From Alphaproteobacteria bacterium (GTDB taxonomy: Bacteria; Pseudomonadota; Alphaproteobacteria; Rhizobiales; JAKIUO01), in assembly GCA_024279115.1 (NCBI GenBank), contig JAJRRW010000067.1, positions 1-41,025 on the forward strand: 41,025 bases of DNA. The letters are read 5' to 3'. The notes under the pieces were generated by a model. It did not search any database. It saw only the letters and a program-made list of their open reading frames with translations, and was not told where the DNA came from. Position numbers and translations under genes: made by a program. How positions within the stretch are numbered: position 1 is the stretch's first letter; each line of letters begins with the position of its first letter. This document shows positions 346 through 6,536 of this stretch, piece by piece.

Positions 346-1908
346 TCACCGACGCCGACGCAGCTTACGCTTTAGCGTCTCGACACTGAAGCCACCAATA
401 AGACCGGCCACGAGAAAATAGATGACCATTCCCGCCAGCACCAGCAGGGCCAGAGCGCCTGCCTGAGTGAGAAAGGGCTGGGTGCGCGAAAACCACGGCG
501 ACAAAATCGGCAGCAGAGCCAGCAGCGCCCCGCCCATCACAAAGCTGGCCAGCAAAATCCGCGGAACAGCCCGCCGTGCCTGGGCATCAAGTACATAATG
601 ACCGCGCTTGCGCAGGGTCGACCAAAGAAGCAAAGCATTGACCCAGCCCGCAATGGTGGTGGCAATGGCAATGCCGATATGGCCAAGCGAAGAGAATAAT
701 GCGAGGCTGATCACCACATTGGTCACCATCGAAATAGCGGCAAAATGCATGGGCGTTCTGGTATCTTCGCGGGCAAAAAATCCGGGCTGAAAAACCTTGG
801 AGAGCACAAAGGCCGGCAGGCCAAAGGCAAAGGCCAGCAAGGCGGTCCCGACCATTTGCGTATCTTGCGCACTGAACTGGCCGCGCTCGAACAAAACCTG
901 AATGAGCGGCTCGGGCACCACGACCAGGGCAACAGAGGCGGGCAGCGTCAAAAGCAGGGAAATCTCCAGCGAACGGTTCTGACTGTCATGGGCCTCGGCA
1001 TCCTTGCCAGCCCGCAGCAAGCGCGAAATATCTGGCAGCAAAACCACGCCAATGGCGATGCCAATCACCCCAAGCGGAAGCTGGTAAAGCCGGTCGGCAT
1101 AGGCCAGCCAGGCAATGGCCCCATCCTGCATGGACGCGATCAGCGTGCCAATGACAATATTGATCTGCACAACGCCGCCGGCAATGACGCCAGGAACACC
1201 GAGCTTCAGCAACGCCTTCACCCTCGGGGTGAGGCGCGGTAATTTCAGCTTCAGCCCCATGCCAATGCGGCGCGCCGCAAACACAACCACAAGCAACTGC
1301 AACAGGCCGGCAAAAGAGACGGCCCAACACAGGATTATTCCGGTTTCAGGCGTGTTGCCATATCCCAGCGCCAGTAGCACAGCAAGAACGCCGATAAACA
1401 CCACATTCAGCAAAACCGGTGCCGCCGCAGCCACCGCAAATTTGTGGAAAGCGTTCAAAATGCCCGAAAACAGCGCCAGCAGGGACACAAACAAAAGATA
1501 GGGCATGGTGATGCGGGTCAGCAAAACGGCAAGGTCAAACTTTTCAGGCGTATCGGCAAACCCACCAGCCAGACCAAACATCAAAAAAGGCATGAAAAAT
1601 TCGGCCAGCGCCGTCACAATAATGAGGGCAAATATCAGCACCGCCATGGCTTCTTCGGCAAATTTCTTCGCCTCTGCCTTGCCCTCCCCCTCAAGCTGTT
1701 TTGAAAACAGCGGAATAAAGGCCGAGTTGAAGGCCCCTTCGGCAAACAGCCGTCGGAACAGGTTGGGAAAGCGAAAGGCCACAAAAAATGCTTCGGCCAC
1801 CGGTCCGGTGCCCAGAGCCGCCGCCAGCAAAATCTCGCGCATAAAGCCAAGAACACGGCTGATTAGCGTAAAGCCACCAACGGTTGCAAAGGATTTAAAA
1901 AGTTTCAT
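346..1908 (-). CDS. murJ: Lipid II flippase MurJ (MviN family)
   Basis: The 520-residue product is the usual length for MurJ and is hydrophobic throughout, with about 14 membrane segments expected for this MOP-superfamily exporter. The N-terminal stretch FATVGGFTLISRVLGFMREI and the following AFFVAFRFPNLFRRLFAEGAF are family hallmarks, the latter holding the conserved Arg-rich loop facing the lipid II cavity. MurJ moves the undecaprenyl-linked peptidoglycan precursor from the cytoplasmic to the periplasmic face of the inner membrane. The protein ends in a basic tail (KRKLRRRR) and a TGA stop. It stands alone: upstream is the chemoreceptor gene on the same strand, about 190 bases away, and downstream is the inverted-repeat element. 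The alphaproteobacterial partner glnD is not seen next to it. Confidence 0.95.
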   Translation of the reverse strand: MKLFKSFATVGGFTLISRVLGFMREILLAAALGTGPVAEAFFVAFRFPNLFRRLFAEGAFNSAFIPLFSKQLEGEGKAEAKKFAEEAMAVLIFALIIVTALAEFFMPFLMFGLAGGFADTPEKFDLAVLLTRITMPYLLFVSLLALFSGILNAFHKFAVAAAAPVLLNVVFIGVLAVLLALGYGNTPETGIILCWAVSFAGLLQLLVVVFAARRIGMGLKLKLPRLTPRVKALLKLGVPGVIAGGVVQINIVIGTLIASMQDGAIAWLAYADRLYQLPLGVIGIAIGVVLLPDISRLLRAGKDAEAHDSQNRSLEISLLLTLPASVALVVVPEPLIQVLFERGQFSAQDTQMVGTALLAFAFGLPAFVLSKVFQPGFFAREDTRTPMHFAAISMVTNVVISLALFSSLGHIGIAIATTIAGWVNALLLWSTLRKRGHYVLDAQARRAVPRILLASFVMGGALLALLPILSPWFSRTQPFLTQAGALALLVLAGMVIYFLVAGLIGGFSVETLKRKLRRRR

Positions 1909-2101: not shown

Positions 2102-4075
2102 CTAGCCCACTTTTTTCTGCGCAGGTGTGGACGCTGTGTCGGTAAACTGAATGCCAGCACGATCACCAGAGGCCCATCTCGCCGTGCCACTTTTGGGTCC
2201 ATCATTGCCAACGGAAACGGTGACTTCCTGGCCCGGCTGCAATCTGGCTCCTCTGATCCCGACACCGCCTTTGGAAATATCTTCAATGATAATTTCCTGG
2301 CCCGCCAGGCTACCGCTATCCAGCTTGGCACTCATCCTTGTGGTCAAACGATCGAACTGGCGCTGGTTCTCGGCTTCTTGCTCCGCATCGAGGGATAACG
2401 ACAGCTCTCCCAATAGACGAACCACGTCGAGACTAGCCTCATTCATACGGTCCACTTCAGCAATGGTTGCCTCGAAATCATTTGCGGCATGGTTGATAAG
2501 GGCCTGTTTGCCAGCGGCATGAACGATCATATGTGGCTCCACCAGCTCTTTGTAACTGGGGTGATTGACAAGTTTGCTATTGGTCAGAGCATCATACCAT
2601 TTTCCCAGTCGACAGGAATGGTGATCCGGGACTTCGTCGCTTTTCCAGTCTCCGCGATCCATCACTGTATCCAGAATGCGTTTCTTGAACAGAACATGAT
2701 CAATTTTTGCCATCTCGCAAAGCGCTTGGTCAGATCCTTCATTGAACCAGTTTTGGGCTGATGTCAAAAATTCATCATTGGTCGATTGATAGCTGTCGGC
2801 CATCTCTTCGATCAGCCCTTCATTTTGGGCAGACAGATTGGCGACATTGACGATACTTTGTGCAATCTCGTTTGTTGCGCCTTTTTGCTCTTGTAAAATA
2901 TTTGATATATCGAGCATTTTTTCATATACACCTCCCACCTGACCAGAGATCTGGTCCATGGTCTCACGAGCGCTGGCAACCGCACGCTCGCCTTCACTTA
3001 CAGCACTTTGCGAAGACGTCATGGTGGCGCGGATTTTCTCCATACCTGAGTTTAGCGCTGCGATCTTGCGGGCAATATCTTCAGTTGATTTCGACGTTTG
3101 GCTGGCGAGGCTCTTTACTTCTGAGGCGACAACAGCAAATCCCTTGCCAGCCTCTCCGGCCCGGGCCGCTTCGATCGTCGCATTCAGGGCCAGCAGGTTT
3201 GTCTGATCGGCAATATCTTCAATGGCCGTCAAGATCTGGCCGATCTCGCTGGACGCTTCACTTAATTCTTCTATGCCTTCATGGGTTTCATGAACAGCTG
3301 CCAGCATATTGTGAATGGCTTTTGTGGCTTCATTGATCGCTTCATGACCATCGCGGGCGGTCTGATTGCTTTCATTGGCTTCGGCGGCAGCGCTTTCACT
3401 GCTCATCGAAATCTGCTCGACAGAGGCGACAAGCTGCGAGGCTGCCGAGGAAATGGTTTGCGAGCCAAGCTTGGCTTCCTTGGCATTGCCAACAAGTCGC
3501 GCCAGTCGAAACGAGGTGGCGTTGACCTTGACGACCGTTTCCGCCAGCGAGCGCAGATTTTTGGTATCGGTATCGCCGTTGTGCAGGCCAATAGCGCTGC
3601 TCATTGACTTTTTCTCATAGGCCGATGTCGAGATCATGATGTCAATGGTCATGCGGGCGATGATTTGCTGCATCTGGTTTTTCATGCGCGACGGCATAAA
3701 CCGGTGTTTCGCGGCAACTCGCGGCAACAAGCGCATCATGATCCACGCATAGGAGGCAAGGTACCAGCCTTGATCAAGGCCAATGCGCTCGTGAATTTCG
3801 CCGATCTGGATGGATCTTTCCTGGAAATTTGCATCAAGACTACCCTCAAGCATGGTTCTCCAGTGATTGAGCTGTGCCGACTTCAACCCATCAATGCGTG
3901 ATTGCTCACCGATGATATTCCGCAATTCTTCGACAGACAGAATATTGCGATAAAAATCATCCATCAAAGATTTGATGATCGGCTCGCAGATCTCCCATAG
4001 CTTGTCGTTGGGCAGCAAATTCTTGCCACCACTAAATAAAAAGGCATCAATTTTTTCGATGAGTTGGTCTTGCAT
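2102..4075 (-). CDS. Soluble globin-coupled chemoreceptor with CZB zinc domain and C-terminal PilZ
   Basis: The 657-residue protein has no membrane segment, so it should be a cytosolic receptor. Residues 1-155 match a protoglobin sensor, with proximal haem histidine H95 in [17 protein letters not shown]. Residues 200-440 are an MCP signalling coiled coil with the hairpin tip [20 protein letters not shown] at about 286-305, which docks CheA/CheW. Residues 455-560 are a CZB domain with its 3-His/1-Cys zinc set: H460, C488 (HSCRLGKWY), H515 and H519. Residues 570-648 are PilZ, with both c-di-GMP motifs intact (RQFDR at 572-576, DISKGG at 599-604). The start at 4075 is preferred over an ATG 17 codons upstream because GGGGAAACGAC precedes it. 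The stop is TAG. The 289-base gap upstream is AT-rich and must hold its promoter. No cheA, cheW or cheY is nearby. The predicted role is to integrate oxygen, zinc or redox, and c-di-GMP signals. Confidence 0.93.
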
Positions 4076-4364
4076 GTCGTTTCCCCGTGTCAGTCTGCCA
4101 GGCAAAGCAATGTCGCTTGGCGGCATTTACAATACACCATCCAAAGATCGTGTATCTGGTTCATGTATTTTTGGAGCGCAATACTAGATATTTTTTTTAT
4201 TATTATTTGACACACCAATATTCGACTGCAAACAAAATATGTGGATTGAACAAGTCGGCGTTGGTCCTAAAATAGTTCTTAGTGATATTTTATTAACAAC
4301 TGACTACCAACTGTATGATTATTGCCATCTGACGTCACATCCGGCACAAACAGCCTGTCAACGC

Positions 4365-6536
4365 TTACATAAAACTATGAGGATCAATATCTATGGTCAG
4401 CTTGAGCGATCCTTTGGGGCGCGGCAATGGGTCGAGCCATTGTTTGATATAAGCCTGAATATCAACCTCGCGCTGCGCTTTGATGAGCAACCGAAAACGA
4501 GCCCGGCCACGGATCATGAAAATCGGAGCTTCGGCTGGTCCAAGCACCCGCAATTTCGACGAACGCGGGGCACTTACCGCCAGCATGCGCGCATAATTTG
4601 CGGCTTCCGAGGTCTGGTTTGACGAGACAATGATCGCCGCCAGCCGGCCATAGGGGGGCAGTGCACCTTTTTCACGGGCCTCCCCCTCTTGTTGCAAAAA
4701 CTGGTCGCGATCACCAGATACCATGGCCTGCATCACCGGATGCTCGGGCATATAAGTCTGGATCAAGCCCCGCCCGGCAATCTTGGCGCGCCCCGCCCGG
4801 CCCGTCACCTGCTGTAACAATTGATAGGTGCGCTCGCCAGCACGAGGGTCGCCATGAGCAAGGCCAAGATCACCATCCACCCCGCCAACCAGCGCCAGCC
4901 CGGGAAAATGGTGCCCCTTGGCCACTAATTGCGTGCCGATGATAATATCGATCTGGCGATTGGTGATCTTGTCCAGCAGCACACGCATTTCTTCAATGTC
5001 GGGAATGAGATCGCTTGACAAGATGGCGGTGCGGGCATCTGGAAAACGCTCAACTACTTCTTCCGCCACTCGCTCGACGCCAGGACCACAGGCCACCAGA
5101 GTGTCTTTCTCGTCGCAAGAGGGGCAGATGCGCAGCACCGGGGTGGTGTAGCCGCAATGATGGCAGGTCAGCTTGTTGTGAAAGCGATGTTCCACCAGCC
5201 AGGCGGAGCAATCGGGACATTCAAAGCGATGGCCGCAGGTGCGGCACAAGGTCAGCGGCGCATAGCCACGGCGATTAAGAAACAACAGGCTTTGCTGACC
5301 TTTTTCAAAGACGTCCTGCATTTCCCCAACAAGCTTTGGAGAAATCCATTTGCCGCGCTCGGGGGGATCGGCCCGCAAATCAATCGAGGTGATGTCAGGC
5401 AGCTTGGCCCCGGCATAACGTTCGGTGAGCTTGAGATGGGTGTAACGCCCGCTTGTCGCATTGACATGGCTTTCAATACTGGGGGTTGCCGAGCTTAGCA
5501 CCACCGGGATTTTTCCCAGCATGGCCCGCACCACCGCCATGTCACGGCCATGATAAATCAGCTGACTTTCTTGCTTGTAGGCCGGTTCATGCTCCTCATC
5601 GACAATGATCACACCAAGGTCTTTAAAGGGCAAAAACAAACTCGAACGCGCCCCGATGACGGCGCGAATGTCCCCCGAGGCGACGCCTCGCCAGATGCGC
5701 CCGCGCTGAACGGGAGAGATCTCCGAATGCCAGCCCGCTGGTTGCACGCCAAAGCGCTCATGAAAGCGTTGCAAAAACTGATTGGTCAGGGCAATTTCAG
5801 GCAGCATGAACAGGCTTTGACGGCCCTCGCGCAAAGCCTGGGCAATGGCTTCAAACGCCACTTCGGTTTTGCCAGCCCCTGTCACCCCATCCAGCAACAA
5901 GGTCGCAAATTTTCGCGCGCTGACCGCTTCATGCAGGCTTGAAGCGGCGCTTGATTGTTGCTCGTTCAAGGTTGGGACGCAAAAGTCCGGGTCCGGCAAT
6001 AGCTCAGCGTCACTGGTCATCAGCTCGGCCACCAACACGCCTGACTTCATCAAGCCACTGACCACCGCCGCCCCAACGCCTGCCGCCTGTGCTAGCGCGC
6101 TCTTGCTCCACACACGGTCCCCCGCCACCTGTAATATTTTTTGCCGCGCTGGCGTCACCTTATTGGGAATCTGGGGCCCCACGCGCACTCCCATTTTGGG
6201 CTTGTTGGGGGTAAATGCTGCCTTGGCGCTCATAACAGAGCGCAAAACCATGCCCCGTGGGGCCATGGTATAGCGGGCCACCCAGTCAATGAACTGGCGT
6301 GACACCAAAGGCATGGACGGCACCTCAAGCCGGTCAATGACGGTTTTCAGTCGCGCCGGGTCAACGGGCTTGCCCGAGCCGCCCACCGCCTCGTCCAGCA
6401 CTACGCCAAGGCGCTCTTTACTGCCAAGTGGCACGTGCACAAAATCTCCTGGTGCGAGCGCCAGTTCATCCGGCACCAGATAGTCATAAGACATATCAAT
6501 CGCCAGCGGCAAAAGAACGGGAACGGTTGTCGGCAT
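4365..6536 (-). CDS. priA: Primosomal protein N' / replication restart helicase PriA
   Basis: This 723-residue superfamily 2 helicase recognises stalled forks and reloads the replisome. Visible motifs are Walker A GVTGAGKTEVA near residue 220, the Walker B/DEAH-like box VDEEHEPAYKQ near 320, SSATPSIES, and the fork-pairing zinc region with eight cysteines (CRTCGHRFECPDC and CHHCGYTTPVLRICPSC). The N-terminal 3'-end-binding domain is present from LPLAIDMSYDYLVP. Length and motif order are typical and nothing is missing. It is divergent from xerC across 95 bases, a common alphaproteobacterial arrangement. No strong ribosome-binding site is visible before the ATG at 6536; the next Met, 15 codons in, would cut into the conserved N-terminal strand. 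Confidence 0.96.
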   Translation of the reverse strand: MPTTVPVLLPLAIDMSYDYLVPDELALAPGDFVHVPLGSKERLGVVLDEAVGGSGKPVDPARLKTVIDRLEVPSMPLVSRQFIDWVARYTMAPRGMVLRSVMSAKAAFTPNKPKMGVRVGPQIPNKVTPARQKILQVAGDRVWSKSALAQAAGVGAAVVSGLMKSGVLVAELMTSDAELLPDPDFCVPTLNEQQSSAASSLHEAVSARKFATLLLDGVTGAGKTEVAFEAIAQALREGRQSLFMLPEIALTNQFLQRFHERFGVQPAGWHSEISPVQRGRIWRGVASGDIRAVIGARSSLFLPFKDLGVIIVDEEHEPAYKQESQLIYHGRDMAVVRAMLGKIPVVLSSATPSIESHVNATSGRYTHLKLTERYAGAKLPDITSIDLRADPPERGKWISPKLVGEMQDVFEKGQQSLLFLNRRGYAPLTLCRTCGHRFECPDCSAWLVEHRFHNKLTCHHCGYTTPVLRICPSCDEKDTLVACGPGVERVAEEVVERFPDARTAILSSDLIPDIEEMRVLLDKITNRQIDIIIGTQLVAKGHHFPGLALVGGVDGDLGLAHGDPRAGERTYQLLQQVTGRAGRAKIAGRGLIQTYMPEHPVMQAMVSGDRDQFLQQEGEAREKGALPPYGRLAAIIVSSNQTSEAANYARMLAVSAPRSSKLRVLGPAEAPIFMIRGRARFRLLIKAQREVDIQAYIKQWLDPLPRPKGSLKLTIDIDPHSFM

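Follow-up and report, generated by a model that had tools for sequence, protein, structure and literature searches.

A soluble alphaproteobacterial chemoreceptor that joins protoglobin, MCP, CZB and PilZ modules in one chain

Cue integration by chemoreceptors is usually studied across mixed arrays, and one gene in the 41,025-nucleotide stretch of alphaproteobacterial DNA analyzed here (contig JAJRRW010000067.1, positions 1 to 41,025, hereafter the window) raises the question of whether oxygen, zinc and c-di-GMP could act on CheA through a single receptor chain. An earlier note on this DNA placed a 657-residue protein at 2102-4075, and that length and those coordinates are right; the strand, which was not given there, is minus. 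The gene, P0001, and its parts are as follows:

2102..4075, minus strand: P0001, globin-MCP-CZB-PilZ receptor gene, 657 residues (ATG at 4075, TAG at 2104-2102)
4082..4086, minus strand: likely Shine-Dalgarno sequence GGGGA, preceding the ATG at 4075
3605..4003, minus strand: Protoglobin domain, residues 25-157 (Pfam E 3e-26; proximal H95, codon 3791-3793, and distal Y42)
2834..3328, minus strand: MCP signalling domain, residues 250-414 (Pfam E 3.9e-39; tip around R305-E308)
2498..2698, minus strand: CZB domain, residues 460-526 (Pfam E 7.1e-14; putative zinc ligands H460, C488, H515 and H519)
2345..2476, minus strand: final helix of the CZB bundle, residues 534-577 (from the models; predicted to run unbroken into the PilZ RxxxR segment)
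2135..2368, minus strand: PilZ domain, residues 570-647 (Pfam E 4.3e-5; strands at 581-644)
2348..2362, minus strand: RxxxR motif, RQFDR, residues 572-576 (both arginines in every one of 34 aligned tails)
2264..2281, minus strand: [D/N]xSxxG motif, DISKGG, residues 599-604 (D in 27, N in 7, S in 28 and G in 34 of the 34 tails)

The stretch GGGGAAACGAC-ATG at 4075 is invariant in the congeners L009 and L010. An alternative in-frame ATG at 4126 would give a protein of 674 residues, and L009 and L010 have an ATG at the matching place, but this longer start is disfavoured: the 17 added residues show little conservation, and congener L011 lacks an ATG at that place. Protoglobin, MCPsignal, CZB and PilZ each score above their Pfam curated cut-offs in P0001, so that the HMM domain search which the earlier note had set as a test left no module missing, and no membrane span was found in the protein (maximum 19-residue hydropathy 0.8), which indicates that it is soluble. 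The residues named in that note (H95, H460, C488, H515, H519, RQFDR at 572-576 and DISKGG at 599-604) are all where it put them, and both c-di-GMP motifs are intact, as it stated. Its central claim, four modules in one soluble chain, thus stands, and on the sequence and the models we conclude that P0001 is a real four-module soluble protein. The AF2 models are of single chains (pTM 0.45 and 0.58), so that the hairpin, its dimer and a helix continuing into PilZ are predictions; the C-terminal model covers residues 440-657 with a mean pLDDT of 84. Confidence is low (pLDDT <50) at residues 575-580 in the full model and 573-578 in the C-terminal model. The fold matches of the full-length model were to globins and rods, and those to PilZ and CZB came only from the C-terminal model.

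What might such a chain do? From sequence, models and analogy with characterized receptors, we think it reasonably probable that P0001 is a cytosolic aerotaxis and redox receptor in which oxygen at a haem, zinc at the CZB domain and c-di-GMP at the PilZ domain all inform CheA. The N-terminal globin would hold a haem through H95, with Tyr42 on the distal side, and bind oxygen or a related gas there; in the CZB domain, which follows the return of the hairpin, H460, C488, H515 and H519 would bind labile Zn2+, expected to be lower under oxidising conditions; and the C-terminal PilZ domain would bind c-di-GMP through R572, R576, D599, S601 and G604. The antiparallel course of the MCP hairpin should bring the globin, CZB and PilZ modules together at the end of the rod opposite the CheA/CheW tip (R305-E308), and since the models predict that the last CZB helix continues into RxxxR, c-di-GMP should reset the packing of that helix and so bias the oxygen and zinc signal to CheA. 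The step that would achieve this is a reordering of the RxxxR segment upon c-di-GMP binding, which would reset the CZB helix. Output would pass through the only CheA detected in the genome, and the expected behaviour is an aerotaxis or redox taxis that is weakened or shifted in threshold when c-di-GMP signals attachment. The analysis shows the domains, the key residues, the predicted folds, their conservation, purifying selection and the presence of che and flagellin-like genes; for P0001 itself we infer the binding of haem, zinc and c-di-GMP, the hinge coupling and the direction of the response. Precedents are on record: in the available portions of the reports, the globin receptor Atu1027 requires His100 for aerotaxis (PMC10851874); a 2026 preprint (PMC13370339) has the CZB domain reading labile Zn2+, whose level stands in for redox potential and oxygen, with direct Cys oxidation as an added route, and the CZB receptor McpA mediating attraction to oxygen; the soluble MCP-PilZ receptor Cbp1 binds c-di-GMP through RxxxR with a KD of 14.9 uM (PMC6454048); and aerotaxis by Azospirillum Aer requires its PilZ domain (PMC6406031). 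The earlier note's proposal that oxygen, zinc or redox state, and c-di-GMP act on the same CheA output is compatible with this anatomy and with a single CheA; the "hypochlorite-type redox" input that it included is the least secure part of the proposal.

The PilZ domain is the weakest Pfam call in the chain (24.2 bits against a cut-off of 22.5, i.e., 1.7 bits above), and at E ≤ 0.01 Pfam detects PilZ in 11 of the 32 members of alignment A1 (22 with the tail, 10 without it) and in 5 of 17 in A2; a PilZ scan of P0001's own genome missed the P0001 copy and listed three other matches, in two frames. Beyond this marginal score, its identity rests on fold matches and on the RxxxR arginines present in every one of the 34 tails, a set that was itself picked by a profile of those same tails. 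The PilZ model matches BcsA (Z 10.7, 2.0 Å, 72 aligned residues), c-di-GMP-bound PA0012 (Z 10.2, 1.5 Å, 68 aligned) and VCA0042 (Z 9.1). Of the 28 four-module proteins, 22 retain both c-di-GMP motifs. The other six, all from Hyphomonadaceae (L034, L039, L040, L042, L052 and L058), keep RxxxR and have DEGKGG, DEGTGG, DEGPRG or NENAGG in place of DxSxxG; for YcgR, the Ser of this motif is reported in the available part of PMC6454048 as not critical. As a separate observation, a close Cys pair (CC, CxC or CxxC) precedes a conserved Trp, in the same turn, in 11 of the 34 PilZ tails (L019, L020, L021, L025, L026, L029, L043, L044, L045, L053 and L064 in alignment A3) and not in P0001; judging from sequence, PilZ could have acquired a redox or metal site there.

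Relatives were gathered by a scan of GTDB contigs, which gave 45 loci (cultured genera among them are Pinisolibacter, Stappia, Roseibium, Cohaesibacter and Ponticaulis), and by genome searches. From 78 open frames above 250 bits in the two sets, 59 distinct proteins were kept, duplicates being dropped when their first or last 300 residues were shared with a frame already kept; weaker relatives below 250 bits, such as L014, L056 and L059, were left out. By profiles built on alignment A1, so that the matches are partly by construction, 28 of the 59 (P0001 included) have globin, CZB and PilZ and 19 have globin and CZB, while the 12 without a globin comprise six with CZB and PilZ (one of these, L045, is cut at its N-terminus by a contig end) and six with CZB alone. 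On the MCP-CZB tree of the 59 proteins the PilZ label changes 8 times and the globin label 2 times (the globin figure omits L045), which makes PilZ the more mobile module, gains and losses being counted together. Behind PilZ-less genes (25 loci), a search for the remnant of a lost PilZ found no clear one behind the 19 globin-CZB genes (best E 0.49). Of the four other genomes searched in the genus, three carry the four-module chain and one, G001, lacks it. Within the order, with three candidates scored per genome, a match at E ≤ 1e-90 was found in 44 of 397 sampled genomes and a match running from globin to PilZ (residue ≤38 to ≥646) in 18 of the 397, own genome included; in the class and phylum samples 3 of 385 and 2 of 398 genomes matched, again with the own genome included. 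Four plasmid records matched, all from Azospirillum and all globin-to-CZB only (query 34-558 twice, 34-552 and 56-558).

These patterns bear on an alternative in which PilZ is a dispensable add-on with no part in tuning the signal (it might stabilise the protein or direct it to the pole) and the device works as a globin-MCP-CZB aerotaxis or redox receptor. Two facts count against our preferred explanation and are what this alternative would predict, namely that 19 of 47 globin-CZB members have no PilZ (with the 8 label changes on the tree) and that the six Hyphomonadaceae proteins retain the fold without DxSxxG; the bare margin of the Pfam PilZ score also agrees with it. Nonetheless, no tail among the 34 is without RxxxR or the Gly of DxSxxG, the receptors Cbp1 (PMC6454048) and Aer (PMC6406031) require RxxxR or PilZ according to the available text of those reports, and PilZ dN/dS is well below 1. 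The last point comes from Nei-Gojobori estimates for the six pairs among the P0001 gene and those of three congeners, most of which are near synonymous saturation (the sole exception is L009-L010, with 0.06 for PilZ): dN/dS was 0.10-0.20 for the globin (6 of 6 pairs), 0.03-0.06 for the MCP region (6 pairs), 0.01-0.07 for CZB (4 computable pairs) and 0.06-0.27 for PilZ (4 computable pairs), and 0.18-0.81 (5 pairs) for the last ten residues, which serve as an in-gene contrast. All four modules appear from these values to be kept by purifying selection, and we regard the add-on explanation as unlikely.

The globin sequence matches HemAT (1or4, E 4e-11), and in the alignment to that structure Y42 and H95 fall on HemAT Tyr70 and His123 (numbering of HemAT residues from the available part of PMC13401364); the globin model matches AfGcHK (Z 16.1, 1.9 Å, 150 aligned) and HemAT (Z 14.8, 2.3 Å, 147 aligned). 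H95 is conserved in 44 of the 47 globin-CZB proteins and Y42 in 45. In L047, L049 and L087, globin-CZB relatives without PilZ, the proximal haem His is missing at the aligned place, and haem sensing may have been given up in them. The CZB domain of P0001 sits C-terminal to the MCP region in a soluble protein and has 3His/1Cys ligands, a TlpD-like layout. It has a profile match to DgcZ (3t9o, E 0.0043), and its model superimposes on the DgcZ CZB domain with Z 11.2 (3.0 Å, 117 aligned); however, other, unrelated four-helix bundles outscore DgcZ in the same fold list (up to Z 13.0), so this fold match is weak by itself and the Pfam match and the four ligands are the stronger evidence. Could one of these inputs nonetheless have been lost, with the globin being structural and free of haem, or the CZB domain constitutively loaded with zinc, so that the receptor reads one or two cues? 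The distal Thr95 of HemAT is Ala67 in P0001 (and Ala in 34 of the 47 globin-CZB proteins), three PilZ-less relatives have no H95, and the HemAT-like receptor of the same genome (below) could cover oxygen sensing, all of which would suit such a loss; but every one of the 28 four-module proteins has both H95 and Y42, and none of the 47 globin-CZB proteins lacks any of the four CZB ligands, a degree of conservation that is unexpected for a purely structural fold. We therefore give the loss of an input little chance.

Between these inputs and CheA lies the MCP rod. In the monomer model, residues 128-443 form a single helix with fold matches to chemoreceptor rods, and the hairpin tip is conserved in alignment A1 (R305 in 32 of 32 and E308 in 25 of 32). 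The strict methylation consensus had zero matches in P0001, and at least one match was found in each of the 7 other MCP frames tested from the same genome (one of them a 171-residue fragment). Canonical methylation sites are common and not universal among MCPs, TlpD being described without them in the available part of PMC12871147. In A1 the N-helix site AAAVEELVSS occurs only in the six rows (of 32) that have lost DxSxxG. The missing consensus in P0001, in a genome with cheR, cheB and seven of seven other MCPs that match, and the confinement of AAAVEELVSS to the rows with a broken PilZ motif suggested to us that PilZ-bound c-di-GMP might partly replace receptor methylation in adaptation and so set the gain of the haem and zinc reading of oxygen. 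Against this, the six rows are one clade and the contrast is thus a single event, which leaves the idea with low odds, and the ten PilZ-less relatives in A1 all lack AAAVEELVSS (five match the consensus elsewhere); we consider such a role for c-di-GMP very doubtful.

The setting of the gene fits the preferred reading, in which P0001 signals to the chemotaxis kinase. In its own genome (98% complete) one cheA-cheW locus was detected, with cheR and cheB, as well as Flagellin_N matches in two frames, four GGDEF matches and a single CZB protein, which is P0001. The protoglobins of the genome are three: P0001, a 448-residue HemAT-like receptor and a 175-residue frame. The HemAT-like receptor (L105:1109-2455, minus strand) has globin and MCP only and carries methylation-consensus matches. 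The CheA of this genome (L104:885-3698) has a receiver domain at its end and is a CheA-receiver hybrid, and its cheB (L104:4600-5843, contig C89) is read as two overlapping frames, which is either an assembly error or real. An output other than flagellar taxis, with the protein serving a different CheA-dependent purpose or scaffolding clusters (biofilm control is one example), would recall Cbp1, whose deletion increased aggregation and biofilm in the available account (PMC6454048), but the single cheA-cheW locus with cheR and cheB and the Flagellin_N matches argue against it and make it highly improbable here. An assembly or annotation artefact that fused separate genes, or a chance fusion, is ruled out for practical purposes: the assembly is fragmented (145 contigs), but the chain recurs in three congeners and in other, distant families, with murJ and priA adjoining it in the near ones.

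These two neighbours flank P0001 in the window and are not part of the device:

346..1908, minus strand: murJ, downstream neighbour, 193 bases away
4365..6536, minus strand: priA, upstream neighbour, 289 bases away

The murJ-receptor-priA trio was found in only three of 13 loci tested (L015, L016 and L017), i.e., in near relatives, and no operon partner was seen. In the clustering of neighbours, the common ones were mostly shared within lineages, and the large clusters appear to contain antisense frames of the receptor, so the clustering is a loose guide. Three promoter-like and three terminator-like sites were counted, where shuffled sequence averages 2.7 and 3.0, and every one of them lies on the opposite strand.

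How new is this receptor? The earlier note held that globin-MCP, MCP-CZB and MCP-PilZ pairs are known, and all three are indeed published. In what follows, comparisons are with the available portions of the cited papers. HemAT and Atu1027 are, like P0001, soluble receptors in which an N-terminal protoglobin that has a proximal His and a distal Tyr precedes an MCP region, and aerotaxis roles are reported for HemAT-Bs (PMC13401364) and Atu1027 (PMC10851874); HemAT-Bs is said to consist of a globin, a linker and a signalling domain, whereas P0001 continues into CZB and PilZ. TlpD and McpA share with it a 3His/1Cys CZB domain C-terminal to the MCP hairpin (PMC12871147, PMC8262984), but TlpD has a PAS-like N-terminus, McpA has no PAS, and no globin or PilZ is described there for either. 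Cbp1 of Azorhizobium and Tlp1 and Aer of Azospirillum are likewise chemoreceptors with a C-terminal PilZ domain (PMC6454048, PMC6406031); Cbp1 is soluble like P0001 and its c-di-GMP binding has been demonstrated (PMC6454048), while Tlp1 and Aer, unlike P0001, are membrane-anchored, and neither globin nor CZB is reported in those texts for any of the three. Outside chemoreceptors, the Acidithiobacillus Protoglobin-GGDEF-EAL-CZB protein AFE_1712 ties a protoglobin and a CZB domain to c-di-GMP in one chain (PMC6416229), so the two domains have been linked to this messenger before, in an enzyme; enzymes of that type would make or break c-di-GMP, whereas P0001 would read it and signal to CheA. The cyclase DgcZ (CZB-GGDEF) has the CZB zinc domain in common with P0001 and uses it to control c-di-GMP synthesis.

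Globin is listed among the domains observed in CZB proteins in PMC8262984, the main text of which does not mention PilZ, and globin-MCP-CZB is therefore probably not new in itself. PMC8547431, PMC7617929, PMC13401364 and PMC4331095 name these domains as separate items in their available parts. According to the accessible text of PMC12442639, several members of a selected set of eleven MCPs, a set that includes two protoglobin ones, carry extra modules such as PilZ, and globin-MCP-PilZ may occur among its Magnetospirillum protoglobin MCPs. No description of the four-part globin-MCP-CZB-PilZ chain was found in the literature searched, the scope of which excluded most subscription papers. The combination is conserved in some Alphaproteobacteria and apparently undescribed; the rarity suggested in the earlier note has to be toned down, given the published pairs, the globin on record among CZB-protein domains, the Acidithiobacillus enzymes and the occurrence of the whole chain in several families.

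If the preferred reading is true, gas, metal and second-messenger cues meet in a single chain at the same end of its signalling rod, and three internal cues could jointly steer swimming. Three ideas would be united in this receptor: aerotaxis by means of haem, a messenger role of zinc in redox sensing and control of aerotaxis by c-di-GMP. Natural relatives without PilZ, without globin or with a broken c-di-GMP motif make such integration testable on a single protein. A separate arrangement was seen at L046, where an 825-residue MCP-CZB receptor without PilZ (L046:1438-3915) is followed after 80 bases by a second gene of the same orientation (3996-4553), whose product of 185 residues has a PilZ-like end with RxxxR and NxSxxG; on sequence grounds this pair is possibly a two-gene version of the fusion.
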